From positions 1 to 36,429 of the forward strand of contig CAIMVM010000280.1 in NCBI GenBank assembly GCA_903844895.1: a stretch of DNA of 36,429 nt, written 5' to 3'. Under the pieces are notes generated by a model. That model did not search any database, was not told the DNA's origin, and was given only the letters and a program-made list of their open reading frames with translations. This stretch comes from an uncultured Pseudomonadota bacterium (lineage in GTDB: Bacteria; Bdellovibrionota_B; Oligoflexia; Oligoflexales; CAIMVM01). The position numbers and the translations under genes are program-made. The first letter of the stretch is position 1. Each line of letters starts with the position of its first letter. Below, one piece after another: positions 6,810-25,981 of the stretch.

Positions 6810-8714
6810 CTAACTCGCCTTCGACTGATGGGTGAGACGGGTAAGAAGTTTGGTAAGATAATATTTATAAATTTTCGTTGAAATATTTCCATTTGAAAAT
6901 AGAGCTTGTTCAAACTTGGAAGAGCTGCAGTACCAGACTTTACATTGCGAAGTAGCGGTAAGCTGCAAAGGTGTCTGATACTCTGCTAAAACCGACAATT
7001 CTCCAAAGCTATCCGAAGCTGAAATAGATCCCGAGGGTTTAGAATCATTTCTGTTCTTCTTAGTACAGCTAAGCGTCCCCTCCAAAACCACATACATACC
7101 TTCCAAATCTGAGATGCCATCATAGAGCACAAAATCCGCATCTATTTCGATAACTTCACCTGCATGCCAAATCAATTCGCACTCATCTCTATTTAAATCC
7201 ACAAAAATGGAGCAATTGAAAAAATTCTTGTGGGTAGCCACCACATATCTAGATTCATCTTTCGAAAACCTCGCGCTCAAACTAGCCCCTGAATCAAAAT
7301 GCTCCGTCTTCTCTAAAGAAGTCGACAAAAAAGCATTCGCCGAAAGATTCCTGCCTCGGGTTTCATTTCCCGGAGAAGCAACTGATGGCTCAGGTGGGGA
7401 GGGCGCATCATCCTCGTCAATATAGAGTTTAAATTCGCTAAGATCACTGGGAGATTCCGCCGTATAGGTCGAGAGCTGAGGTCGAACTTCTTGATGTTTC
7501 GGTTCGGCAGACATTTCTTCAATGGCACTTACATCGAAAGAGAAATCTAAAGAGCTTCTATTGCCGTCCTCGACAGGACTATCTGCTGGTTGCAAATCAA
7601 GATTTTTATGAAGCTCAGAAAGTTGGGAGTCTTCTCCTAAAACGAAACGACTCGGAGCAGAGGATCTTTGAGACCTAGCGCTAGATTTTTTCGACTTTAA
7701 ACGAGATGAATTTTCAATATCACCAGCACGTTCGAAGCAATAATAAGCTCTTTCCAGATCTCCAAATTGCTCAAACGCAATGCCTGCCTTATCAAATTTG
7801 CCACCAGCTTCAAAAATCATCCCAGATCGATCATGCATTCCAGCTTCAGCAAAGGCTAAAGCAAGATCAACATAAGAGATATCTTCATAGTTAATAGCGA
7901 GCATGATCCGATTTATATCTTCCATCTTAGTCTTTGAAATAAGAGGAACTGATTTTTTATAGTTGCCTGCTTTATAAAACTCTATAATCGGCTTATGAAG
8001 TTGGCCATAAGACTGAACAATACTAACGATGTCATCATTAAAGTTCCCCGCAGAGAGCCACTTCACCATGGCATCTTTGTCGGATGAGGTAAATTGGCTC
8101 CTGTCAAAGGAAAGATCTTCAGTTAGTTTTCTAACAAATGACGTGACCGCTGCCTGGATATTTCCGCTTTTTAGGTAAGCTCGTCCCGCCTCTATATAGA
8201 GCTTACACTTGGAAAAGATCTTCGCCGCTTCTTCAAACTTGCTTGCTTTCTCAAAAAGTAAAGCCGCATTTCCATGGTCGCCAGACGCCATAGATGCTTT
8301 CCCGGCCTCATAAAACATTCCGGCAGAAATAAAGCACTCAGCGGCATTGGTCCAATATCCATTTCTAGCATAGATAATACCGGCCCGATTGGGCCGACGC
8401 ATCCGCATGAGAATTTGCGCCGCCTCGTGAATATGTTTGTTCGATTCCAGCACAGCAATGGCGTCGCGCTCTAAACCAATCGACTCTAAAAGTCTCGATG
8501 CCTGCAAAATGCGGTTTTGCCCAATAAGTGACTTCGCCTGGTCCAAAATCTTTGTCTCATGACGAGTCAGATGTCTCTGATCGCTAACGCGCTTAGGACT
8601 TTTGCCTGAATGCGTTGATTTTACCACGGGTCGATTCTTTGACTTCGTGACTTGGGAGTAAACTCCAAAGACAACCACTAAAAGTACGACAATGATGGCG
8701 TAGCCAATTGACAT
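6810..8714 (-). CDS. Membrane-anchored helical-repeat protein with C-terminal cyclic-nucleotide-binding-like domain
   Basis: 634 residues in four parts. Residues 4-20 are one hydrophobic segment (IGYAIIVVLLVVVFGVY) with the Lys-rich cytoplasmic side after it. Residues ~50-350 are TPR/SNAP-like paired helices (for example ALLFEKASKFEEAAKIFSKC, AYYCFERAGDIENSSRL). Residues ~350-490 are a low-complexity Ser/Glu/Pro linker. Residues ~500-620 resemble a Crp/cNMP-binding beta-roll (VIEIDADFVLYDGISDLEGMYVVLEG, SFGELSVLAEYQ). The Arg that contacts the phosphate in true cAMP binders is not obvious, so ligand binding is unproven. GGAG eight bases before ATG supports the start. Likely a cytoplasmic-face scaffold or sensor at the inner membrane. 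Confidence 0.8.
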   Translation of the reverse strand: MSIGYAIIVVLLVVVFGVYSQVTKSKNRPVVKSTHSGKSPKRVSDQRHLTRHETKILDQAKSLIGQNRILQASRLLESIGLERDAIAVLESNKHIHEAAQILMRMRRPNRAGIIYARNGYWTNAAECFISAGMFYEAGKASMASGDHGNAALLFEKASKFEEAAKIFSKCKLYIEAGRAYLKSGNIQAAVTSFVRKLTEDLSFDRSQFTSSDKDAMVKWLSAGNFNDDIVSIVQSYGQLHKPIIEFYKAGNYKKSVPLISKTKMEDINRIMLAINYEDISYVDLALAFAEAGMHDRSGMIFEAGGKFDKAGIAFEQFGDLERAYYCFERAGDIENSSRLKSKKSSARSQRSSAPSRFVLGEDSQLSELHKNLDLQPADSPVEDGNRSSLDFSFDVSAIEEMSAEPKHQEVRPQLSTYTAESPSDLSEFKLYIDEDDAPSPPEPSVASPGNETRGRNLSANAFLSTSLEKTEHFDSGASLSARFSKDESRYVVATHKNFFNCSIFVDLNRDECELIWHAGEVIEIDADFVLYDGISDLEGMYVVLEGTLSCTKKNRNDSKPSGSISASDSFGELSVLAEYQTPLQLTATSQCKVWYCSSSKFEQALFSNGNISTKIYKYYLTKLLTRLTHQSKAS

Positions 8715-8854
8715 CCGCAGATCTCCACAGACAAAGATACATTTCTTGTCCTGCTTCTAAGATCGGAAGATTATTCTAGAAGTTAACAAAACAGCCGACG
8801 GGAGCCGCCAAAAACATCACAATGCATATTAATTACAGCATGTTATATGGAAAC

Positions 8855-9466
8855 TTATATCTTATAGACGATCCCCACCGCAGTCGTAGAATCGAGTACG
8901 GAGGTAATCTTTTGCGGCTCTGCGGGACTTTCGATTTTAACCCCTGGCGATACCGTATAGGATAGCTTCAAGTTAAATGCCTTCGACAAGACAATATGAA
9001 GTCCAGCGCCTGCGCTTGGCTCAGGACCAGACTGTTCTGGATTGATCACATAGGTGACGCCACCACTTTTTTCAATCATATAGTAATCTTTGACGACAGC
9101 ACCCGCTTGGATATAGGGAATGAAAAGATCCCCATAATAGAGAATAAGAGAAAGATTTAGCGAGTTTGAAGCGACATCGGTACGACTCTCTTCATAGTAG
9201 TAAAGTTTAGTTGCAGAATCTTGCTTATAGCCAGAAGCCGTCATGGTGTCTACTCGGTGAGTAAACCCAAGTCGAAAATAGCTACCAAGCCCGACATCAA
9301 CGGAACCACTGATCATCGATCGCTTATTGTTTTGAAGGCCCATGTCGTAGTTAGAGGCAGAGCCGTCGAGACCGATATCTACCCCTGCAAAGGCTGCTCT
9401 TGATAGGACTAGAGATAGAATGCAGGGCACTGAAAACCTTAGAACATAAAAAAGAATCGAATTCAT
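8855..9466 (-). CDS. Probable outer-membrane beta-barrel protein
   Basis: 203 residues. The N-terminal signal peptide ends at a clear Ala-x-Ala site (SRAAFA before GVDIGLDGSA). The mature part alternates short amphipathic strands with turns (SVDVGLGSYFRLGFTHRVD, SLNLSLILYYGDLFIPYIQAG, AFNLKLSYTVSPGVKI) and ends in a strand with a terminal aromatic region (TAVGIVYKI), as in small eight-stranded barrels. The frame is open to 9667 but the ATG at 9466 has a near-perfect GGAGGAGG ribosome-binding site and avoids overlap with divergent rppH. No specific ligand or porin family is recognised. Confidence 0.78.
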   Translation of the reverse strand: MNSILFYVLRFSVPCILSLVLSRAAFAGVDIGLDGSASNYDMGLQNNKRSMISGSVDVGLGSYFRLGFTHRVDTMTASGYKQDSATKLYYYEESRTDVASNSLNLSLILYYGDLFIPYIQAGAVVKDYYMIEKSGGVTYVINPEQSGPEPSAGAGLHIVLSKAFNLKLSYTVSPGVKIESPAEPQKITSVLDSTTAVGIVYKI

Positions 9467-9519
9467 GTAGCCTCCTCCGGGCAGTATAGGTAGAATTATA
9501 GGAAGAAAAGAGGGAGACC

Positions 9520-9975
9520 ATGCTAGGAAAACCTTACCGTGTTGGTGTAGTGGGCGTATTCGTTGATAAAAATGGCCATGTATTAGTTGCTGAGCGCTCA
9601 GATGCTGCAAATTCCTGGCAACTTCCCCAAGGAGGCGTTGAAGACAATGAGGATTATGAGGCCGCACTTAAACGGGAAATGATGGAAGAGCTTGGCATTC
9701 AACGCTTAAAAATTCTAAAGAAATCCAGCAACCCGATTCACTATGACTTTCCGGAAAGTTTAAATGCCCCTCTCGCAAAAAAATACCGCGGACAGGCTAT
9801 GACTTGGTTCTTGGTCGAGTTAATCGATTCTGACGCGCCTGACCTCAGTTTAGCCACCGATGACGAATTTGTAAATTTTAAATGGGTGGAACCTAAAACC
9901 GCCATCGAACTCATTACCCCATGGAAGACTGAGTCTTATAGAGCAGGGTTTAACGCCTTAGGTTTAGGATTCTAA
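9520..9975 (+). CDS. rppH: RNA pyrophosphohydrolase (Nudix)
   Basis: Removes pyrophosphate from triphosphorylated mRNA 5' ends, starting 5'-end-dependent decay. 151 residues with the RppH layout: YRVGVVGVFVDKNGHVLVAERSD, then WQLPQGGVEDNEDYEAALKR leading into the Nudix box (G-x5-E-x7-R-E-x2-E-E-x-G-I fully conserved), then the family-specific KKYRGQAMTWFLVEL and FKWVEP. GGGAG precedes the ATG. Divergent from the outer-membrane protein with only 53 bp between starts. An Ap4A hydrolase of the same family is the main alternative. Confidence 0.92.
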   Translation: MLGKPYRVGVVGVFVDKNGHVLVAERSDAANSWQLPQGGVEDNEDYEAALKREMMEELGIQRLKILKKSSNPIHYDFPESLNAPLAKKYRGQAMTWFLVELIDSDAPDLSLATDDEFVNFKWVEPKTAIELITPWKTESYRAGFNALGLGF

Positions 9976-10005
9976 ACTCTCCCCCATTAAAGAGGTAAAC
10001 GCCAC

Positions 10006-10434
10006 GTGTCAAAGATTGCTCGCTGGAACATGATTATCGGATTTACAGTATTAGTTTTGGCTGCGTCTGGCGGTTTCTTTTTAGCAACTGAGCAAGTTCA
10101 ATCTTTTGTTGAGGGATCTGCAGCAAAGAGCGCCTGGTGGTTTACAGTAGCCACCTCTGCCCATGGCCACACGAACTTATTTGGGATGATTCATATTTTA
10201 TTTGGACTCACTTTGCCATACTCAAAGGCGACTCCTAGAGTGAAATCTTTACAAAGCATTGGCATAGGATTGGGGACTTTTACCATGAGTTTTCTCATGC
10301 TTGCACGCTCCTTAAAGCCGCCAGAGCCCGGGCGTGACTTTCTAGGCCTATTTATTGGATTCATGCTCTCGTGCTCATTAGCAGCGCTGATTTTCCATGT
10401 AATGGGTTTGCTACCGACAAAACGCAGCGCCTAA
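10006..10434 (+). CDS. Four-helix inner-membrane protein, unknown function
   Basis: 142 residues with four predicted membrane segments (about residues 8-27, 56-72, 80-100 and 113-134). Between the first and second lies ATSAHGHTNLFGMIHILFG with three His residues that could ligate a metal or haem; this resembles the spacing in small haem-binding or urate-oxidase-associated membrane proteins only loosely. GTG start with AGAGG upstream. 30 bp after rppH on the same strand and probably co-transcribed. Family not recognised. Confidence 0.75.
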   Translation: MSKIARWNMIIGFTVLVLAASGGFFLATEQVQSFVEGSAAKSAWWFTVATSAHGHTNLFGMIHILFGLTLPYSKATPRVKSLQSIGIGLGTFTMSFLMLARSLKPPEPGRDFLGLFIGFMLSCSLAALIFHVMGLLPTKRSA

Positions 10435-10487
10435 GGTTAAATTTCCCTACGTTAGCCAAGGAATCAACCTAAATCTAGAAAACATTC

Positions 10488-11039
10488 TTAGGAAGCTAAA
10501 TTGATCTTGGCTGAAAGTTCGGTCAGAATGTCTTTGGCTTTTTGCGGATCTTTTAAACTCTTAATATTATCGACTTTGAGCTTCCCGGAGAGAAGATCCG
10601 TCACTTTCTTCTTATCCGGTACCATTTCTGACAGCTCATTCAACTTGAGCCTTCTTGACATTCCAGCCACAATAGTCTCGTTAAAGGTATCGACATGAAA
10701 TGGCTTTCGCAAGTAGCCATCAGCTTCTTCACGGCACACTTTTTCCTGTTCCATATCCATTAAATATCCACTCACCAAAATAAAGGGAATCTTGGGGTCG
10801 ATTTTCTTCACTTTTCTCAAAAGTTGAATGCCATCCATCTTTGGCATTTTGAAGTCCGAAACAACCAAATCTATACTTTTCTCCTTAATGGTCTCTAAGG
10901 CTTCTTTCGCATTTCTAACAACAATGACCTTGGAGAAAAATTTATTCAAATGAATCTTAAAAAACTTGAGTAAAGTCTCATCGTCTTCCACAACCAAAAT
11001 GAAGCTCGTTCTGTCATATACAGTTTTTGGATCAGACAT
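10488..11039 (-). CDS. Response regulator, single REC domain with short C-terminal extension
   Basis: 183 residues. The CheY-like receiver domain (about 12-125) has the acidic pocket VVEDDE, phospho-acceptor Asp in VVSDFKMPKMDG (D62), the switch Ser in LVSGY and the Lys in LRKPF, all intact. The last ~55 residues (KKKVTDLLSGKLKVDNIKSL and beyond) are Lys-rich and helical with no recognised output domain. Two tandem ATGs; the second has GGGAG at better spacing. No histidine kinase is adjacent. It lies 100 bp downstream of the TPR operon on the same strand, so it could be read through from it. Partner unknown. Confidence 0.88.
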   Translation of the reverse strand: MSDPKTVYDRTSFILVVEDDETLLKFFKIHLNKFFSKVIVVRNAKEALETIKEKSIDLVVSDFKMPKMDGIQLLRKVKKIDPKIPFILVSGYLMDMEQEKVCREEADGYLRKPFHVDTFNETIVAGMSRRLKLNELSEMVPDKKKVTDLLSGKLKVDNIKSLKDPQKAKDILTELSAKINLAS

Positions 11040-11140
11040 CATGCACTCCCTAGGGCTTAGAACTTAAATATCTATCGGTACAATCCTTGCAAAGTTGAGT
11101 GGAGCGTGCATAACACACCGAAACTACAAACTATACTCGA

Positions 11141-12259
11141 TTAAAAGGGACGCATCTCGGCGAGGCGTTGATCTGCCTTACCGTAAACGGAGCTAGACGG
11201 TGGCGCCAGCTGAAGGATTTCCTGATAGAGCCGCTTGAGTTCTGTACTTCCGCCTGCCAATGCCTCCAAGGTTAGCGCCAAATTAAATCTTGCATCTACA
11301 TTGTTGGGATCGATTTCAATGACTCGTGCAAGAACACTTCTTGCGCGTTCATAATTCTTCTTCTGAATCAATAGGACCCCCTGCAAATTCAATGCATCAA
11401 CATGCTCCGAGTCCAGCTGAAGAGCCACCTGCAGATCCTTTTCTGCAGATTCGGCATCACCTTTCTCTAGGCCTATAGCAGCGCGATTCACGAGAGATGG
11501 AATAAACTTAGAGTTTATATTGATAGCCTTCGCATACCATTCCAATGCTTCATCAAGCCTGCCATTTCTTCTAGCAATAGTGCCTATTAAGTTAAGTAGC
11601 GCCAAATTTTCTCCCGATCGCTCAAGCCCACGCTTAGCAACGAAATCCGCTGTAGAAATCTTTCCAGAATTCAAGTAAGAAAGAGCTAACGCTACATATG
11701 CTGGGGCAAACGTGGAGTCAATTCCGACAAGCTGGCTCATAATATCCTGGCCTTTAGCCACATCTCTCTTATCAAGGTAAGCCAGTCCCAGACAATAGCG
11801 ATACTTAAAGAGAAAAACTTTATCAGGATACGTAATCTCATCAAGCAACACGCGAATTTCGGTGAGAAGAGCCAAAGAGGACTCGGCATTTCCTTTCCGG
11901 CTATACACAAGCGCAAGTTCCAGCTTTAAATCTAAATGATTGGGGTATGACCTGACTGCATGTTTTAAAGTGTCCTCAGAGGCGCTGTAGCTCCCGATCG
12001 CGGATTCAAGCCTAGCCTTTTGCATGGCCTCAGCTGGCGAACTAACTTTGCCCCACTTCTCTAACCTGCTTTTAATTTTGTCCCTATGGGCTCGATCGGG
12101 CGAAGGTGTGAACATCAACTTCCAATCAGCCACGGGATCAAGAATCATCGACTTGGCTAATCGATTCGGATCCTTAGAAATACCATCATCAAGTCCTAAG
12201 TTGTCTTTCTTTGGCCCAGAGCATGCTATAACCATACTTAGCCAGAATAATGCTTTCAT
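11141..12259 (-). CDS. TPR repeat lipoprotein, GltE-like
   Basis: 372 residues with a short signal peptide and lipobox (MVIAC, lipidated Cys13), then at least six tetratricopeptide repeats, for example residues ALEWYAKAININSKFIPSLV and AEKDLQVALQLDSEHVDALN, each with the canonical spacing. The start at 12259 has GGAG six bases upstream and overlaps the preceding stop (TAATG), so it is translationally coupled; an ATG four codons further up is less likely. Size, lipobox and its place directly after a giant repeat protein recall Myxococcus xanthus GltE following GltD. That assignment is inference. Probably an outer-membrane-attached periplasmic scaffold. Confidence 0.82.
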   Translation of the reverse strand: MKALFWLSMVIACSGPKKDNLGLDDGISKDPNRLAKSMILDPVADWKLMFTPSPDRAHRDKIKSRLEKWGKVSSPAEAMQKARLESAIGSYSASEDTLKHAVRSYPNHLDLKLELALVYSRKGNAESSLALLTEIRVLLDEITYPDKVFLFKYRYCLGLAYLDKRDVAKGQDIMSQLVGIDSTFAPAYVALALSYLNSGKISTADFVAKRGLERSGENLALLNLIGTIARRNGRLDEALEWYAKAININSKFIPSLVNRAAIGLEKGDAESAEKDLQVALQLDSEHVDALNLQGVLLIQKKNYERARSVLARVIEIDPNNVDARFNLALTLEALAGGSTELKRLYQEILQLAPPSSSVYGKADQRLAEMRPF

Positions 12260-15200
12260 TAGAGACTCCATTCGTTGGGAAGTTCGACTCGCGCAGCAGC
12301 GGGGATACTAGGTCCCAAGTTAGAACTTTTACCGCCATTAACTACCAGCCAAGATTTTCTGAGCCAACTGCTTTGGCCAAGGGAAACCGGGTCCCTGGTT
12401 GCCGCTAAAGCGTTATCTGAGTGCAAACTCTTACTCAGTCGCTCTAAGCGTTCGCTTTGACCCTTAAGTCGCTCTTGGTCGCGATAAGGTAGCTTTTTTT
12501 CTTCGTCATAAAGTACCTTCTTTATGTCTCTTGCAAGCTCACCAGAGGCTTCAGCGAGACGAAATCGTGCCTCAGGGGCAAACTCTTTAGACCCAGTACC
12601 AATAACCTGACTGAAATTTTCAGCTGCATTTTCAAAAATTTCTGACTTGATGGCAAGCGATCTAACTAAAGACTTATCTTCCTTATCAATTCGAGCGGAT
12701 TTAAATTTCTTCATCTCTTCTTGAGCCTTAGCTAACTCCACCTTAGAAATCACCTCACCCCAATCTTCTCTTCCAAGATTAGGTTTAGCAATGTCTGCTC
12801 GACGCCTGATATCACTAAGGCGATCCAATCCAGCACTGATTTGTTGATTGTCCAACAAAATCCTTGCTTCAAGAATCTCTGCATTAAATTTATCGATGGG
12901 TATATTGGCAACCGATTTAGCGTTAGCTGCGAGCTTCCATGCCTTTTCAAATTCCCCCTGCTTCAGCATTAAGTCAGCGTTCGCTAAAAGAAGTCTATAC
13001 TTTTGCTCAGGTCGTTTCTCGCGGCTTGTAGCAAGAGTTAAAGCCTCGGATTGCAATGGAAGATTGTTATTAGCTTCCGCGAGTCCTATAGCCTTCGTGA
13101 CTGAGGAACTAGCCTTAGAATGTTTCGGATACAAAGAAGCAAGCTTCATGTAGCTACCAGCAGACTCAGAAAACTTAAGTTGGTACTCCTGGGCCCGGGC
13201 TTCCAGATAGAGCATATCGCCTTGGTACTTGCCAGAAGGCCGAGCCAAGTATTCTTTGGCCGACTGCTCAGCCGCCAACCAACGACCGGCCATTGCTTGA
13301 CTGTAGGCGCCGTCCCGATAAAACTTGTCTGAGCCTGGAACTGCATCATGATTTTTAGAAATAGATAAGAGCAAATCTGAAGACTCATCAAACCTTGCAT
13401 CCTTTGACAAATCTTCATAACGCCTCGATACTACGTAGGAAAGTGTTCTTTCGAATTCACGCTTTATGGGCATGCCCACGGTCTTCCAATCTTCTAACTT
13501 AAGAAATTTGGTAATTGTCGAAATAGCCTGTTCATTATTATTTTCTGATATAGGAGCAAAAATAAGACCACGTAATGCCGCTACTCTCTGGCTGTTTTGG
13601 GGGTTCGACAAAAGAACTTTACGCCACTTAGCGGTACTATTTTTCGTATTGCCGTGGTCACGCCAAGCGCCAGCTACCGACAATAGTAAGTCGTTAGATT
13701 CCGATTTTGAGGGATATTTGGCGACAAAACTTTCAGCTGCATTGTCAAATGCTTCCAGCTTACTAAAAGTGTCTTTATCGAGGGCAGGATTGACTCCAGA
13801 ATCTAAACTTCTAGCATAGGACTTCCGCCAAATCTTTTCTGCGACGACCACTTGTTGATAAGCAACTATCTGCAAATCTTCCTCGTTCAAGGTGAGATTT
13901 CCTCTAAGTTTTGCTAAACTCGAAGAAGCCTCCTCCCAATTGTCCATCTGAAGTTGCGCAAGAGCACGATTCATTTTCCAACGATTGAGCTCAGGATCCG
14001 TTACAAATGTGCCTTCTAAAACAGAGAACAGCTGTTCTGCCGACAAGAAATCGTCTTTATTCCCAGTCTCCATACCTTTTTGTAGGTGCCAAGTGGCTGC
14101 CGTTAAAGTAGCTTCCCTAGCGACTACCTCCATATGGGAAATAGCTGACTGCTGCTGAGCATTTCTGGAGCGCCAAAGGCTCGACTTAGGCAAAATCAAA
14201 GAAAGGTCTTCTAAGACTTCTATTTTTTGATCCATCTGGTTCAACTGTCCCAACGAAACACTCCAAAGTTTTAAGATGTCTGGATAGAAGGGAGACAGAG
14301 CCAAAACTTTGCGTGACTGAGTCACAATGAGATTTACACTATTGTGATCGTCCACGCCTTGAAGTTTTTCCACTAACTTAATTAGTATTTCAGCGGAAGC
14401 TGTCGTTACATCAGGCTTGACTAATTGAAATCTGATTTTAGCTGGATCTTTGATTTCATATAGGGTGCTTGCCACAAGACTAATAGCGTCTTTCCTCATA
14501 CCATCCCGAGTTTCTGGGGACAGGTCACTGCTGCTTGCCTTAATGATTTCCACAGAGTTTGCAATACATTCCTCAAGAGCTCCCAAACGATAGTAGGCCC
14601 ATGCCATGCGGTATCTAATCTCGTAATAGAGTGGATCAAAACGCTTGGTTCCAAGCTGTTGTTGCTTGGTAATCCCTGCTTTAAGATACGAAAGAGACCG
14701 AGAGTAATTGTCTTTTTCAAAATAGGAGTCCGCTATAATCAAATTAGCATGTATAGAATATATATCTGTATTTTTACTTTTAGATAGCTCCTCCCAAATA
14801 GATAGGGAAGGTCCATTTTGACCAGACATTTCTAATGCGCTGGCTAGAAAATATAGCGCTTTATCATGGTCACGACTTTCAGGAAATGATTTTACATGTT
14901 CTTCTAATTGAGCTATGGATTCGCTTCGCACGGAAACCGAATCCAAACCTAAGGACTCTTGAATATTAGCTTGACGAGTTAGGGCGACACTTAAGTTAAG
15001 AAGATTGTCAGCCTTTAAATCGCCATTGGGGAGAATTTTCAGTTGCTCTTTGTAATTTTCAATTGCCGATTTCAGCAATGAAAGCTCGCTTTCCCCTTGA
15101 ATGCGATTTTTCTTGCTTTCTTCTTCCTGAAACCTTTGTAATGATTCGGAATACTCACTCATCTTTTGGGCACTTCGCTTCTTAGAAAAAGCCTGATAGG

Positions 15201-15354
15201 CCTCCCAATAATCTTTAAGAGCTCTAGAATTTGACGGCGAAGCACTAGACATAGAGGTCTGAAAAAAAGCGAGAACAATAACTAATACATGAGGTAATAC
15301 AGGAAGTAATGCAAGAAGTGATGCAAGAAGTGATGGAAGACGAGACTTTTTCAT
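12259..15354 (-). CDS. Large exported TPR-rich protein, GltD/AgmU-like
   Basis: 1031 residues. Starts with a long hydrophobic signal or anchor (residues 5-32, SLLASLLALLPVLPHVLVIV) and continues as irregular helical repeats of TPR/SEL type throughout (for example YFEKDNYSRSLSYLKAGI, AWAYYRLGALEECIANSV, AKWRKVLLSNPQNSQRVAAL). No catalytic motif seen. GGAG precedes the ATG, which overlaps the stop of the previous gene. It occupies the position that gltD has relative to gltE in Myxococcus, but sequence orthology was not tested. Likely a periplasmic scaffold on peptidoglycan or the inner-membrane surface. Confidence 0.8.
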   Translation of the reverse strand: MKKSRLPSLLASLLALLPVLPHVLVIVLAFFQTSMSSASPSNSRALKDYWEAYQAFSKKRSAQKMSEYSESLQRFQEEESKKNRIQGESELSLLKSAIENYKEQLKILPNGDLKADNLLNLSVALTRQANIQESLGLDSVSVRSESIAQLEEHVKSFPESRDHDKALYFLASALEMSGQNGPSLSIWEELSKSKNTDIYSIHANLIIADSYFEKDNYSRSLSYLKAGITKQQQLGTKRFDPLYYEIRYRMAWAYYRLGALEECIANSVEIIKASSSDLSPETRDGMRKDAISLVASTLYEIKDPAKIRFQLVKPDVTTASAEILIKLVEKLQGVDDHNSVNLIVTQSRKVLALSPFYPDILKLWSVSLGQLNQMDQKIEVLEDLSLILPKSSLWRSRNAQQQSAISHMEVVAREATLTAATWHLQKGMETGNKDDFLSAEQLFSVLEGTFVTDPELNRWKMNRALAQLQMDNWEEASSSLAKLRGNLTLNEEDLQIVAYQQVVVAEKIWRKSYARSLDSGVNPALDKDTFSKLEAFDNAAESFVAKYPSKSESNDLLLSVAGAWRDHGNTKNSTAKWRKVLLSNPQNSQRVAALRGLIFAPISENNNEQAISTITKFLKLEDWKTVGMPIKREFERTLSYVVSRRYEDLSKDARFDESSDLLLSISKNHDAVPGSDKFYRDGAYSQAMAGRWLAAEQSAKEYLARPSGKYQGDMLYLEARAQEYQLKFSESAGSYMKLASLYPKHSKASSSVTKAIGLAEANNNLPLQSEALTLATSREKRPEQKYRLLLANADLMLKQGEFEKAWKLAANAKSVANIPIDKFNAEILEARILLDNQQISAGLDRLSDIRRRADIAKPNLGREDWGEVISKVELAKAQEEMKKFKSARIDKEDKSLVRSLAIKSEIFENAAENFSQVIGTGSKEFAPEARFRLAEASGELARDIKKVLYDEEKKLPYRDQERLKGQSERLERLSKSLHSDNALAATRDPVSLGQSSWLRKSWLVVNGGKSSNLGPSIPAAARVELPNEWSL
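15301..15336 (-). repeat. Three tandem 12-bp units inside the signal peptide of the 1031-residue protein
   Basis: Three nearly identical 12-bp units (plus strand AAGAAGTGATGC with one or two substitutions in the outer copies) encode the repeated SLLA of the signal peptide. The period is a multiple of three, so unit gain or loss would change hydrophobic length without a frameshift. Confidence 0.7.
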
Positions 15355-17597
15355 TTGGTCACTCCACTTTGAGTTGTGTCAAGGTAGTCTTCTGCAATTT
15401 TTTGACGTTCGAGTTCCGATTTTTCGCGTGCTTTATTGTGATCTTTTTGCATTTGCTCAAGTTTTTTCATTTTGGACTCAGCCATCCATTCGTGAGTTTC
15501 AGAAAGACGCGATGTGATTTCGCCTAAGAACTGATTCACAAGCAGACTTCCTGACTTCCCCATGGCCAATTCTAGATCACCACGAAGCCAAGCGGCTCGA
15601 GAGACAGTTTCAGCTGCCATTTTTGAATGTTCCTCCAAATCACTCAATTGCCGATTAAGTTTGGTCTGAAGTGAATTCTGATTGGTGATTACATCGCGGT
15701 AAAGCTCTTCAGAAACTTGAAACCAATTCGTCCAAAGGCCGAGCAAACTTTTTTTAAGCTCTCTTGTGGTATAGTCGCCCGTTGGTGTGAGATAGGTTTT
15801 AAACTTAGAAAGTTCATAAGCCATGGCGAGTGAATACTGAAGAATAAATTTCTCGTGTGCCAGGTACGGTGACAGAGATGATAGAGAGGATGTGGTATTT
15901 TTTTGAACTTCCAGAGAAAGCTCAGAGACTCGTCGCTCAATTTTTTTTTGCAGACTGAGTACTTCTATCTGGTTAGAATTTTTAGAGTGGGAGTTTTGAA
16001 TTGCTAATTGCTGTATAGAAAGAGCTCTGATATCCCGAAGTTTGTCGAGTTGCGCTTGGCCGAGGACCCAGCCGCCAATATTTTCAAAATTTCTTTGAAA
16101 TTTTGAGGACTCACTTGATATAAATTCTCTACGAGTAGAACTGCGAGTAACTGCTTCACGATCCGCAAGAGATAGATCATTCTCGAATATAAAAAGACTT
16201 AAAGTTGAAATTCTGTTTGCGAGATCAGCAATTTCTTCGCATTTATTCCCTAGTTCACGCCCGCGAATTGTATCGTCGGGAAAAATGGTAGAAAATGGCT
16301 TAGAAGCAAGCCAATTATATTGTTCGATAACACTTGAACTTACAAAATTAGCTCGATCTTCAAGCCGATTGATTTTCGAAAATAGATCTTGGCCATTTTC
16401 AGCAATTGAACCCGGATTGCCAACGGATTTGACCTTCGAAATCATGGTTGCAAGATGCGCTTCTGTAATTCTTTCTCTCCCCAAGGCAGACTCTTTCAAC
16501 TCTGATGCGATAGACTCAAGTTTTTGAATCCTATTTTTATAAAATTCTGCATCATTTTCACTGGAAACGGTCTGAAGAACAAGAAAAGATCTGTAGAGAT
16601 CTACTTCGTGCAAATATTGACTCTGAGGAAATGCAGCGAGAAATAGATCAGAAAGTTTAAGCGCTTTTCCATATTCCATAGCCGAAGTAGCTGCATGAAT
16701 GGATTCTCTCAGTGCTGCATGATACTCGGTACTCTTGGAATCCACCTTTTCAAGCCACGAAAGGGATTCCTTATAGTGCTTTCTATAAAATTCTACACGA
16801 CCCAATGCAAGCAGAACCTGATCATGATACGTAGATATTTCGCTTGATCGAGATAGAGATTCTGCTTTTAATAGAATTTCATACGCACCGTCGGAATCAT
16901 CACGAGAAATGGCCAATAGGGCTTGGTAGAATAGTCCTCGAGTTGTGGTGGCTTTAGAGTTTGATTTTGTCGCTTGATTGAGCCAGTCCATGGCAAGATC
17001 CGGACTACGGTCTATAACAGCAAGACGTCCTGCCAAGAAGTGGGCTTCAAAAGCAGACTCCGTCCCATGTTCCGCCACAAGAATGGCTGAAATATTTTGT
17101 TTGAGTTCGAGACCTTTACGCGGCGACTTCTCTTTTAATAGACAGTCGATAACACTGGCGAGAACATCGTTTGTTTTTTCGGGATCTAGTTGAGACAGCT
17201 TTGAAGAATCTGCAAGAAATGCCTTAAAGTGCACAATGGCCGCCGCGTAGTTGCCAAGTGAGGCTTCTGATTTTCCATAGAGATAATGATATTGGAGAAG
17301 ATTTTGGGCTATGTGAGTGTTGGTGCCTCGCTCATAGCGCTTTAGCTCTCTTATGGTCGCTAGCCAATTGCCTTTTGAAAACCAGTAGATACTATCCTCT
17401 AAAGACTTAAAGCTTTGAGATTTACCGGTTCCCTGACCTGGAATGTTTTTAATCGCATTCTCTGATTTGAGAGATAGGCTGATGTCCTTAAGTTGGCTTG
17501 TTATCTTCGAAATTTCTTTTTCCGGAACGTCAAGCGCCTCCGAGACAGCAGGCGTGCTAGCGGCTATTAAGAACCAAAGAAACCCTCGACTCATCAT
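15351..17597 (-). CDS. Exported helical-repeat protein of unknown function
   Basis: 748 residues with a signal peptide (GFLWFLIAASTPAVSEA, cleavage before LDVPEK). The first ~370 residues are TPR-like (YWFSKGNWLATIRELKRYE, AAIVHFKAFLADSS, VEFYRKHYKESLSWLEKVD), followed by ~350 residues of long charged helices likely to form coiled coils, ending in a Lys/Glu-rich tail (KMKKLEQMQKDHNKAREKSE). Its start overlaps the preceding stop and its stop overlaps the next start, so translation is coupled on both sides. No family recognised; the context points to an envelope assembly. Confidence 0.78.
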   Translation of the reverse strand: MMSRGFLWFLIAASTPAVSEALDVPEKEISKITSQLKDISLSLKSENAIKNIPGQGTGKSQSFKSLEDSIYWFSKGNWLATIRELKRYERGTNTHIAQNLLQYHYLYGKSEASLGNYAAAIVHFKAFLADSSKLSQLDPEKTNDVLASVIDCLLKEKSPRKGLELKQNISAILVAEHGTESAFEAHFLAGRLAVIDRSPDLAMDWLNQATKSNSKATTTRGLFYQALLAISRDDSDGAYEILLKAESLSRSSEISTYHDQVLLALGRVEFYRKHYKESLSWLEKVDSKSTEYHAALRESIHAATSAMEYGKALKLSDLFLAAFPQSQYLHEVDLYRSFLVLQTVSSENDAEFYKNRIQKLESIASELKESALGRERITEAHLATMISKVKSVGNPGSIAENGQDLFSKINRLEDRANFVSSSVIEQYNWLASKPFSTIFPDDTIRGRELGNKCEEIADLANRISTLSLFIFENDLSLADREAVTRSSTRREFISSESSKFQRNFENIGGWVLGQAQLDKLRDIRALSIQQLAIQNSHSKNSNQIEVLSLQKKIERRVSELSLEVQKNTTSSLSSLSPYLAHEKFILQYSLAMAYELSKFKTYLTPTGDYTTRELKKSLLGLWTNWFQVSEELYRDVITNQNSLQTKLNRQLSDLEEHSKMAAETVSRAAWLRGDLELAMGKSGSLLVNQFLGEITSRLSETHEWMAESKMKKLEQMQKDHNKAREKSELERQKIAEDYLDTTQSGVTK

Positions 17598-18325
17598 CGG
17601 CCATCTCCAGTTTTTAGACTTACATCGATCTTTTTGCTGCCTGACGCAGATCCTGCTACAAGGCTATATTCCTTGGAGACGGCTTGGCCCTCTGATTGGA
17701 TTTCATATTTCTTATCGAGACTCCAACTTATATCTTCATCTGCGAGAAGCTTGCTGGAACTCCATCCCCAAACTCCTTCGACCTTGAGGGTATGTTTACC
17801 TTGGGGAAGCGCACCTTCGTACACTTTGAAATTTTGCGGCAGGGCGCTGCTTGATTGAGAAAGTTTATATTCAAAGAGGGGAATGTCATTTAGAAGAACC
17901 CGCAGGTATTTGGTCCGAACGTTCTGATCTTGTAGGCCCTTATAGAAAACAGTGGCCCTTGGCATGATCTTAGAGTCTTCCGTCAGACTTGTGGCTTGAA
18001 CATTGACCTTTTCCGTTAGAGTCTTTAAATCTGAGTCAAGTCTAGAGATTTCTTGAGAGAGCTCACTTATTTTTTTTAGCTCGTCTAGGTTTGCGGGCAC
18101 ACTATCAGAAGTAAATGTCTGACCCATTTTTTTTTCATTTTTTTTAATTACCTTGTAGGGTTCAAGCACTTCGGATCTTTGATCATCTAATTTTTTTTCT
18201 AGTCGATCCAGTACAGAGTCAATTTCTCCAACCTCGGCATCACCAGCAAGTGCAGTTATGCTAACGAAAATCACACTCAGTAAGAAAAAATTTGCTTTAG
18301 CGAAACACTTTAGAATTTGGCTCAT
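17594..18325 (-). CDS. Secreted coiled-coil protein with C-terminal beta domain
   Basis: 243 residues. Signal peptide FFLLSVIFVSITALAG is followed by two coiled-coil stretches (about residues 34-68 and 80-113) and a C-terminal beta-rich domain with LRVLLNDIPLFEYKLSQ and LPQGKHTLKVEGVWG, a pattern suggesting an immunoglobulin-like sandwich. Starts within the stop of the transglycosylase gene (ATGA) and overlaps the next start. Codons near residues 60-68 contain A9 and A8 tracts. Function unknown; probably a periplasmic subunit of the same system as its neighbours. Confidence 0.76.
   Translation of the reverse strand: MSQILKCFAKANFFLLSVIFVSITALAGDAEVGEIDSVLDRLEKKLDDQRSEVLEPYKVIKKNEKKMGQTFTSDSVPANLDELKKISELSQEISRLDSDLKTLTEKVNVQATSLTEDSKIMPRATVFYKGLQDQNVRTKYLRVLLNDIPLFEYKLSQSSSALPQNFKVYEGALPQGKHTLKVEGVWGWSSSKLLADEDISWSLDKKYEIQSEGQAVSKEYSLVAGSASGSKKIDVSLKTGDGR
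18127..18145. repeat. Paired homopolymer tracts (T9 and T8) inside a coding region
   Basis: On the plus strand, T9 (18127-18135) and T8 (18138-18145) are separated by CA; on the coding strand they are A8 and A9 runs encoding Lys-Lys-Asn-Glu-Lys-Lys. The frame is intact here, but such runs are prone to replication or transcription slippage. Confidence 0.85.
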
Positions 18326-19602
18326 TGCTCACCCCTTCTAACATTAGTTCTCTGGTCATATGCGATCTTTTTCTGTGGCAGGTAGGCGTTGATTGCTAGA
18401 AATGCATGGGACTTGCTCTGGCCGGCACTCAAAGGCATTAGCAACTCAAAGCCGCGAGGAAGTTTCATCTGGGGATATCTGCTGGCCACTTTTTTGTTGA
18501 TACAAGGATTGAATTTTAGAATCTCACTCACGTCTAGCTCGACAATCTCGGATAGATCTTTAAGAGAGACTGACTGCTTCAACTTTCCTGACCCTAACTT
18601 AAGCCTACTAGGACGCTGGGACACGGATCCTTCACGAATGGCTTTATTATAGGAATTTCTGGCTGCGATAAATTCAGCATAGAAATTTTGCGAGGCAAAA
18701 CCAAAAGAAGGAGCATCCCATTTTTCGATAAGATAAGGAAGATAGTCTGACCTTAGTGATTTTACGGCACGAGCAATACCAGCTGGACCATGATTATAGG
18801 CGGTTACCGCAAGAGGCCAATTCCCGAGGTCTTGAAAATTGGATTTGAAGAGCTGGGCTGCAGCTCTTGCAGCTTTGATGGGTGAATTGCGTTCATCGAT
18901 AAGCTGATTCACGATCATATAGGTCTGTGCTGTTCCTGGCATAAATTGAAACATGCCAGAAGCTCCGACTTTAGAAATAGCAGTCTCATTGAACATGGAT
19001 TCCACAAAAGCGATCCTGGTGAGATCTATGGGCACGCCCACCGCTTTAAACTCCATTTCTAGATAAGGTAAAAAGTCTTGAGCTTTTTCTGCTGCTGATT
19101 TGAAGATATCAGCCATACCCCTCTGCTGCCGAATAGAGGCTCTACCACTCATGAGTCTTGCATAGGCCTTTTTATTTTTACTATAGACCTGATAGACACG
19201 GTCTTCCATAAGACCGAGATTTCTAGCTTCTGAACCTAGTTTGGAAAACTGGCGAAGTGCCGCTTCATAGCGCCGCTGATATTTTTCAGCGATATTCTTT
19301 TGGCCATTGGAAGTCAACAAGAGTTTGTCGTTTTTTAAAGCAGCCATTCTTGAAAAAGGCAGAATATCTAAAATAAGCTGAGGGTCTTTAGTGTCATGAA
19401 TAATTATGGTTTTAGAGTCATACTCTTGAAAAATTCTTTCCCAATAGCCTACGCGCTCCCCTAGCTCAGGTGGAGCCTCTAGGCTCGCATCATAGGTGAT
19501 GGCGGTTGCTGAAGTCGCAACTAGGGCAGTTAGGAATAGAGTCCAAGTAGCGCTAACCGCATGCATAAGGATATTTCTTGCTTGATTAGGTGGAAGTGCC
19601 AT
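18322..19602 (-). CDS. Membrane-bound lytic transglycosylase (MltD type) with LysM-like domain
   Basis: Cleaves the glycan strand of peptidoglycan in the periplasm. 426 residues from the chosen start. Signal peptide ends near ALVATSATA. The SLT domain spans about residues 180-330, with catalytic Glu in RIAFVESMFNETA and the following family motif GASGMFQFMPGTAQTY, then WPLAVTAYNHGPAG. The C-terminal ~55 residues (SLKDLSEIVELDVSEILKFN and LPRGFELLMP) fit a LysM-type glycan-binding module. Upstream ATG at 19620 and downstream ATG at 19566 are alternative starts; none has a clear ribosome-binding site. First gene of the five-gene envelope operon and divergent from tRNA-Pro. Confidence 0.85.
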   Translation of the reverse strand: MALPPNQARNILMHAVSATWTLFLTALVATSATAITYDASLEAPPELGERVGYWERIFQEYDSKTIIIHDTKDPQLILDILPFSRMAALKNDKLLLTSNGQKNIAEKYQRRYEAALRQFSKLGSEARNLGLMEDRVYQVYSKNKKAYARLMSGRASIRQQRGMADIFKSAAEKAQDFLPYLEMEFKAVGVPIDLTRIAFVESMFNETAISKVGASGMFQFMPGTAQTYMIVNQLIDERNSPIKAARAAAQLFKSNFQDLGNWPLAVTAYNHGPAGIARAVKSLRSDYLPYLIEKWDAPSFGFASQNFYAEFIAARNSYNKAIREGSVSQRPSRLKLGSGKLKQSVSLKDLSEIVELDVSEILKFNPCINKKVASRYPQMKLPRGFELLMPLSAGQSKSHAFLAINAYLPQKKIAYDQRTNVRRGEQ

Positions 19603-19639
19603 GCTATCAAAACGCTCCATGACGAATTTTGTATGATGT

Positions 19640-19716
19640 CGGGGTGTAGCGCAGCTTGGTAGCGCGTACGTCTGGGGGGCGTGAGGTCGCTGGTTCGAAT
19701 CCAGTCACCCCGACCA
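19640..19716 (+). tRNA. tRNA-Pro (GGG)
   Basis: Cloverleaf with acceptor CGGGGTG paired to CACCCCG, D-arm TAGCGCAGCTTGGTAGCGC, anticodon loop CTGGGGG giving GGG, T-arm GCTGG-TTCGAAT-CCAGT (last pair G-T type) and encoded ACCA end. The first base is C, typical of bacterial tRNA-Pro. The anticodon stem contains G-T pairs. 77 nt. It starts 37 bp from the divergent transglycosylase gene, so its promoter must reach into that gene's 5' end. Confidence 0.95.
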
Positions 19717-20893: not shown

Positions 20894-22324
20894 ATGTCTG
20901 AAGCACCTCTGACTAACCGTGAATATAAATACGGCTTCTATACAGATATTGAAACCGAAGAGTTCCCCAAGGGACTTTCGGAATCCATTATTCGAAAAAT
21001 TTCGGCGATTAAAGAAGAGCCCGACTTTATTTTAGACTTTAGACTCAAGGCCTTTCGCCATTGGATCACCCTGGAAGAGCCTAAGTGGGCCAATGTAAAA
21101 TATCCAAAAATAGATTTTCAAGATTTGAAATACTATTCAGCCCCGAAGAAAAAACCACAGCTTAGCAGTCTTGAAGAAGTGGACCCTGATATATTAGAAA
21201 CATTCGAACGGCTGGGGATTCCTTTATCTGAACAAAAACGCCTGTCCGGCGTTGCAGTAGACGCCGTATTTGACTCAGTTTCCATTATGACGACCCATAA
21301 AGCTGATTTGGCGAAATTTGGCATCTATTTTGGCTCTCTTTCTGAAGGCGTCAAAGAGTACCCAGACATTGTGAAAAAATATTTAGGTAGCGTCGTTCCC
21401 TATAAAGATAATTTTTATGCTGCTCTCAATTCAGCCGTTTTTAGTGATGGCTCACTGGTATATATTCCTAAAGGTGTGCGCTGCCCTATGGACTTATCTA
21501 CCTACTTTAGAATCAATGCCAGAGAGACCGGCCAATTTGAGAGAACTTTAATCATTGCGGAAGAAGGTAGCTATGTGAGCTATTTGGAAGGGTGCACGGC
21601 ACCGATGCGCGATGAAAATCAATTGCATGCTGCCGTTGTAGAACTTGTAGCCTTAAGAGATGCCGAAATAAAATATTCCACCGTTCAAAACTGGTATGCC
21701 GGTGACAAAGAAGGAAAAGGTGGCGTCTATAACTTTGTAACCAAGCGCGGGCTGTGCAAAGGGGACAATTCCAAAATTTCTTGGACTCAGGTAGAGACAG
21801 GCTCCTCGGTCACTTGGAAGTATCCAAGCGTGATTCTTCAAGGGGATCACTCAATTGGAGAGTTCTATTCCGTAGCCCTCACTAATTTCAAAATGCAGGC
21901 TGACACGGGCACGAAAATGATTCACCTTGGCAAAAATACAACGAGTAAAATTGTATCTAAAGGCATTACGTGCGACGAATCCATAGGCACCTACCGCGGT
22001 CAAGTACGTATCGCAGCTTCGGCTGAGAATGCCCGAAATTATACTTGCTGCGATTCCATGCTGGTAGGCGACACAAGCATCGCCTGCACAGTTCCCTATA
22101 TTGAAGTAAAGAACAAATCCGCTGTCGTCGAACATGAGGCGTCAACCTCAAAAATAAGTAGCGATCAAATTTTTTATTTCAAGTCCCGGGGCATTGGCGA
22201 GGAAGAAGCCATTAGTCTCTTGCTCAACGGTTTTTGCAGAGATGTCTTTAACACCCTCCCAGCAGAGTTTGCTGTAGAAGCCGTCAAGCTACTCGAATTG
22301 AAATTAGAAAACAGTGTTGGTTAA
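20894..22324 (+). CDS. sufB: Fe-S cluster assembly scaffold SufB
   Basis: Core scaffold of the SufBCD complex in the cytoplasm. 476 residues, normal length. Characteristic stretches include [76 protein letters not shown] and the C-terminal [20 protein letters not shown] shared with SufD. AGGAG precedes the ATG. First gene of a seven-gene plus-strand operon; sufC follows after 12 bp. Confidence 0.97.
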
Positions 22325-22336
22325 ATAGGAGTTTAG

Positions 22337-23089
22337 ATGTTTGAGATAAAAAATCTACATGCCGGTATAGATGGTAAAGAAGTCATTAAAGGCCTCAATC
22401 TTACCGTTAATCCTGGTGAAGTACACGCGATTATGGGCCCCAATGGCTCTGGAAAGAGCACATTCTCAAAGGTAGTTGCAGGCCATGCTGACTATGAAGT
22501 ATCAGAAGGCCAAGTTCTTTTAGACATTCATTTTAAAATGAAAGACATACTACTTCTCGCACCTGATGAAAGAGCAAGAAATGGTGTTTTCTTAGCATTT
22601 CAGTACCCCACCGAAGTTCCTGGGGTAAATAATCTCGAATTTTTACGCGCTTCATTCAATGCCACCATGCGCGAGCAAGGCATTCAGGAAATGGACGCCA
22701 CAAGTTTTGAAGCTTTTGTGCTCAAGAAAATTGAATTTTTAGGCATGAAGCCTGACTTCTTGGCTCGACAAGTCAATGTGGATTTTTCTGGCGGTGAAAA
22801 AAAGAGAAACGAAGTCTTACAAATGGCAGTCCTATCGCCGAGGCTTTGTATCTTAGATGAAATCGATTCTGGATTGGACGTAGATTCCCTAAAAGCAGTT
22901 GCTGATGGAGTCAATCGTCTTAGATCAAAAGAAAATGCTTTTATACTTATCACCCATTACCAAAGACTTCTCGATTATATCGTACCTGATAAAGTTCATA
23001 TCTTTAACGATGGACGGATTATAAAGTCTGGCGGCAAAGAACTGGCCAAAGAGGTAGAAACTCTAGGCTATGACCATTTAATTCACTGA
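22337..23089 (+). CDS. sufC: Fe-S assembly ATPase SufC
   Basis: ABC-type ATPase that drives conformational change in SufBCD. 250 residues. Walker A GPNGSGKST, Q-loop in FLAFQYP, signature FSGGEKKRNEVLQM in the SufC-specific form, Walker B LCILDEIDSGLDVD and switch His in ILITHYQRLL are all intact. AGGAG precedes the start. Confidence 0.97.
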   Translation: MFEIKNLHAGIDGKEVIKGLNLTVNPGEVHAIMGPNGSGKSTFSKVVAGHADYEVSEGQVLLDIHFKMKDILLLAPDERARNGVFLAFQYPTEVPGVNNLEFLRASFNATMREQGIQEMDATSFEAFVLKKIEFLGMKPDFLARQVNVDFSGGEKKRNEVLQMAVLSPRLCILDEIDSGLDVDSLKAVADGVNRLRSKENAFILITHYQRLLDYIVPDKVHIFNDGRIIKSGGKELAKEVETLGYDHLIH

Positions 23090-23096
23090 GGTTTTT

Positions 23097-24332
23097 ATGG
23101 GTCAAATCGTAGAAAGCTTTGAAAAGGTTTGGGCGGAAGCGGATCAATCACATCCCCCTAAAAATTTCGTGCGCCTGATTCGAAAAGAATTAGAATTCCT
23201 GCCTTGGCCAGACAGGGGACATGAAGATTTCAAATACACAAATCTATCCAAATATTTAAATTCACCTTTTATAAGTTCGAAAAAAGAACTCTTTCAAATT
23301 GAAAACGACAATGCCTATCACACCATCACATTTATCAATGGATATTTGACCTCTAAGAATGTGGATACGAAGTCGATTCAAATTTCTGAGCTGGAGCCAG
23401 AGTCCCACTTTTTAGAAAGACCGTCGACTCAGATACTTTCACTTCTCAACTGGGCTCAAGGTAGCAAAACCGTTCATATTCAAGTGCTCTCCACCTGTAC
23501 TAAGCCCCTTTTCATCCAATATATCAATGTGGGCTCTGACAGCCAAAGCCTCATACAGCCAAGAATAGCCGTCGCTCTTTCACCTCATGCCAAAATCACG
23601 ATTCTTGAGGATACACTTGATATGGGCGGCAGCGGGGGATTTGTTAATAAACTATTTATGGCAACTCTTGCCGAAGGCTCAGAGCTCAACCATTACCGCA
23701 TTCAAAATGAAGGGCACAAGTCCACTTCCAATGGCTCCAATCAAGTTGAGGTCCATAGAGATGCGATCTATAAGACATGGCATTTTAACTTAGGTGCACT
23801 TTTAGGACGTGAAGCAAGTCAAATTCGTCTACTAGAGGAAGGAGCTAGGGCTCAACTCAAAGGCCTTTATCTTTCCACCGAAAATCGGCAGCTTGATCAA
23901 CATATTGAAGTCTTCCATGATTCCAAAAACACCTATAGCAAGCAACATTTCAAAGGCATTTTACGTGGAAAATCCAAGGCAGTCTTTAATGGACGAATTT
24001 ATGTTGCAAAAGGCGCCTCTGGAGTAGACGCCCGGCAGCTAAATAACAATCTCCTCCTCTCGTCAGAAGCTGAGATTGATACGAAACCTGAACTGATTAT
24101 TGAAAACTCCGACGTCAAATGCTCCCATGGGGCCACAGTCGGACAGCTTAATCCCGATCAAATCTTTTATTTAATGGCTAGGGGAATCCCAGCACCACAA
24201 GCAGAAGAAATCATTTGTCGGGCTTTTGCCGAAGAAATCCTATTTAGTATAGAAAACCTAGACATTAGAAAAAAGGTAACGCGAGCTTGTGCTCACGTCT
24301 TAAACCAAGGAGGACTATATGCTCCAGTTTAG
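23097..24332 (+). CDS. sufD: Fe-S cluster assembly protein SufD
   Basis: Paralogous partner of SufB. 411 residues. N-terminal LPWPDRGHEDFKYTNLSKYL matches the usual 'P.P...EEWRYT' opening. The beta-helix core ends in SDVKCSHGATVGQLNPDQIF, where the conserved Cys and His lie, then YLMARGIPAPQAEEI. 7 bp after sufC, and its end overlaps nfu by 14 bp. Cysteine desulfurase (sufS) does not follow, as it commonly does elsewhere. Confidence 0.95.
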   Translation: MGQIVESFEKVWAEADQSHPPKNFVRLIRKELEFLPWPDRGHEDFKYTNLSKYLNSPFISSKKELFQIENDNAYHTITFINGYLTSKNVDTKSIQISELEPESHFLERPSTQILSLLNWAQGSKTVHIQVLSTCTKPLFIQYINVGSDSQSLIQPRIAVALSPHAKITILEDTLDMGGSGGFVNKLFMATLAEGSELNHYRIQNEGHKSTSNGSNQVEVHRDAIYKTWHFNLGALLGREASQIRLLEEGARAQLKGLYLSTENRQLDQHIEVFHDSKNTYSKQHFKGILRGKSKAVFNGRIYVAKGASGVDARQLNNNLLLSSEAEIDTKPELIIENSDVKCSHGATVGQLNPDQIFYLMARGIPAPQAEEIICRAFAEEILFSIENLDIRKKVTRACAHVLNQGGLYAPV

Positions 24333-24870
24333 AATCCAGAGCACCCCAAATCCTAACGCACGTAAATATGTATTAAGTGCAACAGTTAAAGCTGAAGGAA
24401 AGGTTTCCTATTCTAGTGCCTCAGAATGCTCTCATGTGCCGATGGCTTCTACACTATTAGGTCTGCCTGGTGTCAAGCAAGTCCACCTTTTTGAAAACGT
24501 CGTAACGATAACTCAAAACGGTGAAATCAATTGGGCTGAATTGGATAAAAGTGTTCAGGATGCTATCCTTTCAGAAATTGACACCCATGACATCAACTTC
24601 ATTGACATTTTAGATAGAGAGCCAGAACGTCGGGCGCTCTTGTCAGAAGAAGGTAAAAGAATCGAAGATATTTTAGACATGACCATTCGCCCCGGATTAC
24701 AAGCAGATGGAGGTGACGTGGAAGTGATAGAAATTCATGAAAACATCGTCACATTACGCTACATGGGCGCTTGCGGAGGGTGTCCCAGTTCCATGGAAGG
24801 TACACTTGAGGCTATTAAAGCTATTTTACGTGATGAGTATGATCCAAATGTTGAAGTCGTAGCCATTTAA
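24319..24870 (+). CDS. NifU-like Fe-S carrier with Nfu N-terminal domain
   Basis: 183 residues. Residues 1-~85 are the Nfu_N domain (FRIQSTPNPNARKYVLS...); residues ~105-180 are the NifU C-terminal domain with cluster-binding CxxC in YMGACGGCPSSMEGTLEAI and the preceding RPGLQADGGDVEV. Delivers 4Fe-4S clusters to target enzymes in the known family. AGGAGG precedes the ATG, within the end of sufD. Next gene nadA encodes a likely client. Confidence 0.94.
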   Translation: MLQFRIQSTPNPNARKYVLSATVKAEGKVSYSSASECSHVPMASTLLGLPGVKQVHLFENVVTITQNGEINWAELDKSVQDAILSEIDTHDINFIDILDREPERRALLSEEGKRIEDILDMTIRPGLQADGGDVEVIEIHENIVTLRYMGACGGCPSSMEGTLEAIKAILRDEYDPNVEVVAI

Positions 24871-24891
24871 TCTTCATTGGAAACTTGAACC

Positions 24892-25959: not shown

Positions 25960-25981
25960 TGGCACCTAGAAGAGGTTTGAA

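Follow-up and report, generated by a model that had tools for sequence, protein, structure and literature searches.

The window analyzed, a stretch of 36,429 nucleotides, corresponds to contig C280; the genome has a size of 4.23 Mb and is split into 372 contigs. The window contains five open reading frames on the minus strand whose sizes and positions agreed with the original prediction. Gene 1 (18322..19620) encodes an exported, MltD-type lytic transglycosylase of 432 amino acids (aa). Its likely start is 19602 or 19569, and the in-frame ATG at 19602 is the end that had been given originally. The SLT domain (residues 200 to 288) was recognized by PF01464 with an E value of 4e-21, and MltD was the closest family (E = 1.7e-14), with a score that stayed below the 508 bits required for the MltD equivalog. 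A sequence search of the PDB matched 8rhe (E = 3.7e-20). In an alignment of 16 sequences, the catalytic E207 and the FVES, QFMP, and AYNxG motifs were invariant, which supports the proposal in the original prediction of a dedicated peptidoglycan-cleaving subunit and makes gene 1 its putative gene.

Gene 2 (17594..18325, minus strand) encodes an exported protein of 243 aa that belongs to a conserved family. Its AlphaFold model (mean pLDDT of 75) contains helices at residues 4 to 27 and 80 to 120, the latter a coiled coil, followed by a beta-sandwich of eight strands between residues 123 and 241. A Foldseek search with this model returned nothing at an E value of ≤0.001 and thus no clear structural relative, and no counterpart was found among the Glt profiles compared. 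Gene 3 (15351..17597, minus strand) encodes an exported protein of 748 aa, modeled by AlphaFold as a TPR solenoid with a long C-terminal coiled coil (pLDDT of 81), gene 4 (12259..15354, minus strand) an exported TPR protein of 1,031 aa, and gene 5 (11141..12271, minus strand) a TPR lipoprotein of 376 aa, in which the lipobox cysteine C17 is invariant in 20 sequences. The export signals of the operon proteins were assigned by eye.

The original prediction had described every junction as an ATGA- or TAATG-type overlap. This was true of the junctions between genes 1 and 2, 2 and 3, and 3 and 4, all of which are 4-nt ATGA overlaps; genes 4 and 5 overlap by 13 nt, and a TAATG junction is obtained only if gene 5 starts at the next in-frame ATG. 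Two further features were absent from the original prediction. Located 3' of gene 5 and co-directional with it is gene 6 (10488..11042, minus strand), which encodes a receiver-domain response regulator of 184 aa (PF00072, E = 3.9e-23), whereas just upstream of gene 1 lies a divergent tRNA-Pro (GGG) gene (19640..19716, plus strand) detected with ARAGORN. Promoter and terminator scans gave results at chance level.

The reading of individual loci revealed that 19 other genomes of the order carry all of genes 1 to 5 in an unchanged arrangement; most of the junctions are overlaps or gaps of a few bases. The five-gene arrangement is therefore not due to chance. The gene 3 protein was matched in 24 of the 56 genomes searched, its own genome included. 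Gene 6 is present in nearly all relatives, at a distance of 12 to 107 nt from gene 5, and few loci are devoid of it; the operon and the response regulator gene are thus conserved as a six-gene unit across the Oligoflexales. Similarly, the divergent tRNA-Pro gene was kept in 13 of the 14 related loci scanned with ARAGORN. The named relatives in which gene 4 family members occur are MAGs of Oligoflexales, Oligoflexus, and Pseudobacteriovorax, which the NCBI places in the Bdellovibrionota, class Oligoflexia. In six loci (L193, L195, L196, and L224 to L226) from genomes of another order of the same class, genes 2 to 5 form a quartet that has neither the transglycosylase nor the response regulator gene and is flanked by a tRNA-dihydrouridine synthase-like gene, assigned by eye, and an RNA-binding protein gene.

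Past the response regulator (positions 6810 to 10434), the window encodes a 142-aa protein, a NUDIX hydrolase, a small barrel-like protein, and a 634-aa TPR protein with a cyclic-nucleotide-binding domain, a group of genes that stays together in most relatives. On the other side (20894 to 27168) lie a SUF iron-sulfur operon with a NifU-like protein, followed by NadA, an Rrf2 regulator, and a uracil-DNA glycosylase.

Similarity of genes 3 to 5 to GltC, GltD, and GltE

Profiles were built for the operon, for the Glt core, and for a second GltC-GltD-GltE set (GltC2, GltD2, and GltE2), and all were compared against all. At the level of these profiles, genes 3, 4, and 5 recognized GltC, GltD, and GltE, respectively, as putative counterparts that follow each other in the same gene order. 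For gene 4, the similarity was colinear and covered the full length, with hhalign E values of 2.2e-25 for GltD (838 columns) and 1.4e-45 for GltD2 (897 columns); median profile scores were 75 and 105 bits, respectively, as compared to at most 15 bits for GltC or GltE. Gene 5 aligned with GltE2 (E = 6e-29) and GltE (E = 6.8e-15), and its profile scores of 70 and 34, respectively, exceeded those of other TPR proteins (≤20). The hhalign probabilities were 99.7 to 100% for gene 4 with GltD and 98.4 to 99.8% for gene 5 with GltE. Profile matrix and profile-profile alignment thus agree on a strong relation of genes 4 and 5 to GltD and GltE. The resemblance to GltD and GltE that the original prediction had noted is thus borne out, as both this similarity and the conserved linkage of the five genes in related genomes were found.

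It had also been stated that the first three genes have no recognized Glt counterpart, which does not hold for gene 3, for which GltC is the closest protein over the TPR half. The gene 3 profile scored 40 with GltC and 41 with GltC2, whereas the best off-target score was 23. In hhalign, the match to GltC had an E value of 2.5e-13 over 304 columns and was restricted to the N-terminal TPR half, with off-target TPR proteins reaching E values down to 5e-9. The proposed relation between gene 3 and GltC is consequently based on a modest margin and the conserved gene order.

Several other matches were set aside. Foldseek matches of gene 3 were generic to TPR solenoids and provided nothing specific on its identity; the Campylobacter motor scaffold 9hmf, for example, ranked 14th among many of this type. 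Matches of gene 4 to KSB1 and Caldithrix proteins corresponded to short TPR stretches, and searches of PDB sequences with the operon proteins retrieved generic TPR, coiled-coil, and SLT matches only. The GltE model NF033758 was discarded as evidence since it matches generic TPR proteins and was positive in 12 of the 14 control genomes.

The Glt core and the distribution of the operon

The same genome harbors a complete Glt core on another contig (positions 65000 to 84000 of C73, locus L051), comprising AglR, AglQ, AglS, an outer-membrane barrel, GltC, GltD, GltE, and GltG, the last with an FHA domain. A third contig (positions 9000 to 25000 of C247, locus L169) carries the second GltC-GltD-GltE set, which is motorless, has parallels in many relatives, and is reminiscent of the Nfs situation. 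No protein of the window matched the GltC equivalog NF033756 (cut-off of 450 bits) at an E value of 0.01, and relatives of the operon gave weak matches of 19 to 31 bits in their TPR part in four cases. The C73 GltC, with 204 bits, is itself under the cut-off. Of the eight MotA/TolQ/ExbB genes of the genome, none is in the window and one is in the C73 Glt core; likewise, GltG (FHA, TonB-like) and a GltA/B-type outer-membrane barrel are absent from the operon, and both are encoded on C73. With the tests for GltC, GltG, barrel, and motor failing in the operon and a complete core present elsewhere, the operon is not the Glt machine. The operon shares with the Glt core (AglRQS-GltCDEG) of Myxococcus xanthus and relatives the homologous GltC-GltD-GltE order, the exported TPR proteins, and the TPR lipoprotein. 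In contrast to that core, it lacks motor genes, GltG, and the barrel, the similarity to GltC is conserved in one half only, and it has its own transglycosylase, coiled-coil/beta-sandwich protein, and response regulator.

The distribution of the gene 4 family (profile A6) leads to the same conclusion. Genomes were classified as flagellated by the presence of FlhA, with FliF as a second marker for genomes that gave no FlhA or no gene 4 match, which resulted in 50 flagellated genomes out of 58. Of these, 40 had gene 4, as compared to 0 of the eight genomes without FlhA and FliF (Fisher test, P = 2.3e-5, kinship being ignored). Two genomes (G053 and G056) with lower scores were accepted as carriers because the match to gene 4 was better than that to GltD and a gene 5 relative was adjoining. 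GltC was kept in seven of the eight non-flagellated genomes, all devoid of gene 4, whereas in seven flagellated genomes of genus g25 gene 4 was present and GltC was undetected. The distribution of gene 4 is thus independent of that of Glt in both directions, a double dissociation that argues, together with the complete core elsewhere in the genome, against the initial view of the operon as part of a gliding machine.

On an RpoB tree, the flagellar trait changes approximately four times, and three or four independent losses can be counted. In independent pairs, gene 4 changed in the same way as flagella or not at all, and never in the opposite direction (three pairs, median P = 0.25); the number of independent losses is too small for a significant phylogenetic test. 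As ten flagellated genomes have no detectable gene 4, the gene is not essential for flagella.

Possible role at the flagellum and alternatives

Considering these data, our preferred reading, to which we assign a probability of slightly above one-half (approximately 55%), is that the operon products form a periplasmic assembly that derives by descent from GltC, GltD, and GltE of the Glt/Nfs machines but serves the flagellum. Its occurrence only in genomes with flagellar genes suggests that it may be a wall-anchored flagellar scaffold rather than a gliding engine. In one relative (G054, locus L200), relatives of genes 2, 3, 4, and 5 and then a response-regulator-like gene begin 15 nt behind a row of genes for FlgM, an FlgN-like protein, FlgK, and FlgL. 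This adjacency was seen in one genome only: no TPR cluster lies behind flgL at the flgK loci of 15 other genomes, and no flagellar gene is nearby in the window and in most relatives. Also weighing against this reading are the small number of independent flagellar losses, the ten flagellated genomes that have no detectable gene 4, the clusters of the other order that do not include the transglycosylase gene, and the generic nature of the gene 3 Foldseek matches. Furthermore, FlgJ was found in open frames of 135 to 217 aa in all eight genomes checked. These frames are too short for the usual hydrolase domain, which FlgJ is therefore predicted to lack here.

Most of the observations are accommodated by a scaffold of the flagellum that lies in the periplasm and brings its own wall-cutting enzyme, and we infer each functional step of this model. 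The exported TPR proteins would surround the basal body as a ring or as spokes, holding or positioning the stator, and the gene 5 lipoprotein would tie this scaffold to the outer membrane. The MltD-type enzyme might open or trim the peptidoglycan, giving rod and scaffold a passage or a site for anchoring, and might in this way do the work that a hydrolase-less FlgJ cannot; the response regulator might adjust the expression of the system or its activity.

The alternative that fares best, although we consider it unlikely, is a general module for envelope or peptidoglycan maintenance, similar to CpoB/Tol-Pal, that would coordinate wall cutting with the outer membrane and would be lost alongside flagella merely because host-associated or reduced lineages drop both. 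The weak similarity of gene 4 to YbgF/BamD, the position of an MltD-type enzyme as the first gene of the operon, and the small size of the non-flagellated genomes (1.8 to 3.1 Mb) are in accordance with this idea. However, gene 4 is kept in many flagellated genomes of 2.1 to 3.0 Mb, the non-flagellated genomes keep Glt, so that envelope machines are not lost in general, and the G054 genes sit behind flgL.

We give still less credit to an alternative load, in the manner of Nfs, for the AglRQS motor encoded elsewhere, with a role in gliding or surface transport. AglRQS of M. xanthus is also used by the Nfs sporulation complex, a set of Glt paralogues (PMC3858216) that, like the operon, comes without motor genes; genes 3 to 5 are homologous to GltC, GltD, and GltE, an AglRQS core is present in the same genome, and the lytic transglycosylase AgmT of M. 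xanthus connects the Glt motors to the peptidoglycan (PMC11444678). Nevertheless, the operon has neither a barrel gene nor GltG, and its conserved transglycosylase and response regulator set it apart from Nfs. Whereas Nfs needs AglRQS, the module occurs in the seven flagellated genomes without detectable GltC and is missing from the seven flagella-less genomes that keep GltC. An apparatus for predation or host attachment, in which scaffold and wall-cutting enzyme would serve invasion, is very improbable: there are predators among the Bdellovibrionota and a wall would be a possible substrate of the enzyme, but no operon product looks secreted beyond the cell envelope and the distribution tracks flagellar genes.

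The proposed flagellar scaffold has precedents, since flagellar scaffolds made of TPR proteins have been described before, as have Glt/Nfs paralogues. TPR scaffolds of the stator or basal body include PflA/PflB of Campylobacter and MotC/MotK (PMC11870540, PMC13023049), and in B. bacteriovorus a TPR protein of approximately 1,000 aa is encoded in a flagellar operon and the motor shows a density resembling PflA (PMC5758724). These proteins, the FlcA-D collar, and the Bdellovibrio protein (WP_011165745.1) are, like those of the operon, long exported TPR proteins tied to the flagellum, and the G054 set, in a flagellar operon, parallels them. Any sequence similarity seen was generic to TPRs, and the likeness, including that of WP_011165745.1 to gene 4, is otherwise one of description; in addition, the operon lies mostly away from flagellar genes and has linked GltC- and GltE-like partners. 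As for the enzyme, Borrelia has a flagellum-specific lytic transglycosylase, a separate SLT enzyme, alongside a single-domain FlgJ (PMC8517470). BB0259 of Borrelia and SltF of Rhodobacter share with the present case the combination of such an enzyme with a hydrolase-less FlgJ, whereas gene 1, with a putative flagellar role, is MltD-like, does not have the BB0259 architecture, and is co-operonic with TPR scaffold genes. The Glt core itself and its duplications, including four sets in Bdellovibrio, were described by Luciano et al. (PMC3169522). We found no description of a flagella-tracking, GltCDE-derived module with a conserved transglycosylase in the literature searched, which left most subscription journals outside.

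A more far-reaching version, which we put forward tentatively and hold at somewhat less than even odds, is that the gliding machine's structural TPR core underwent duplication and that the copy, equipped with a lytic transglycosylase of its own, was recruited to the flagellar motor of the Oligoflexia, where it would be a stator or basal-body scaffold. Two motility machines that are usually deemed unrelated would then share homologous periplasmic parts, and Glt/Nfs envelope machines and flagellar motors would be linked by descent. If so, the operon would provide candidate genes for the periplasmic ring of the Bdellovibrio motor, its transglycosylase would be a candidate wall-cutting enzyme for flagella with a hydrolase-less FlgJ, and gliding annotations of TPR proteins in these genomes may in fact mark flagellar components.

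Elsewhere in the same genome (contig C28, positions 8865 to 12770 of locus L054), a MotA-MotB-like pair is followed by a gene for an exported protein of 709 aa with a weak FliG-like stretch, possibly another accessory protein of the flagellar motor.
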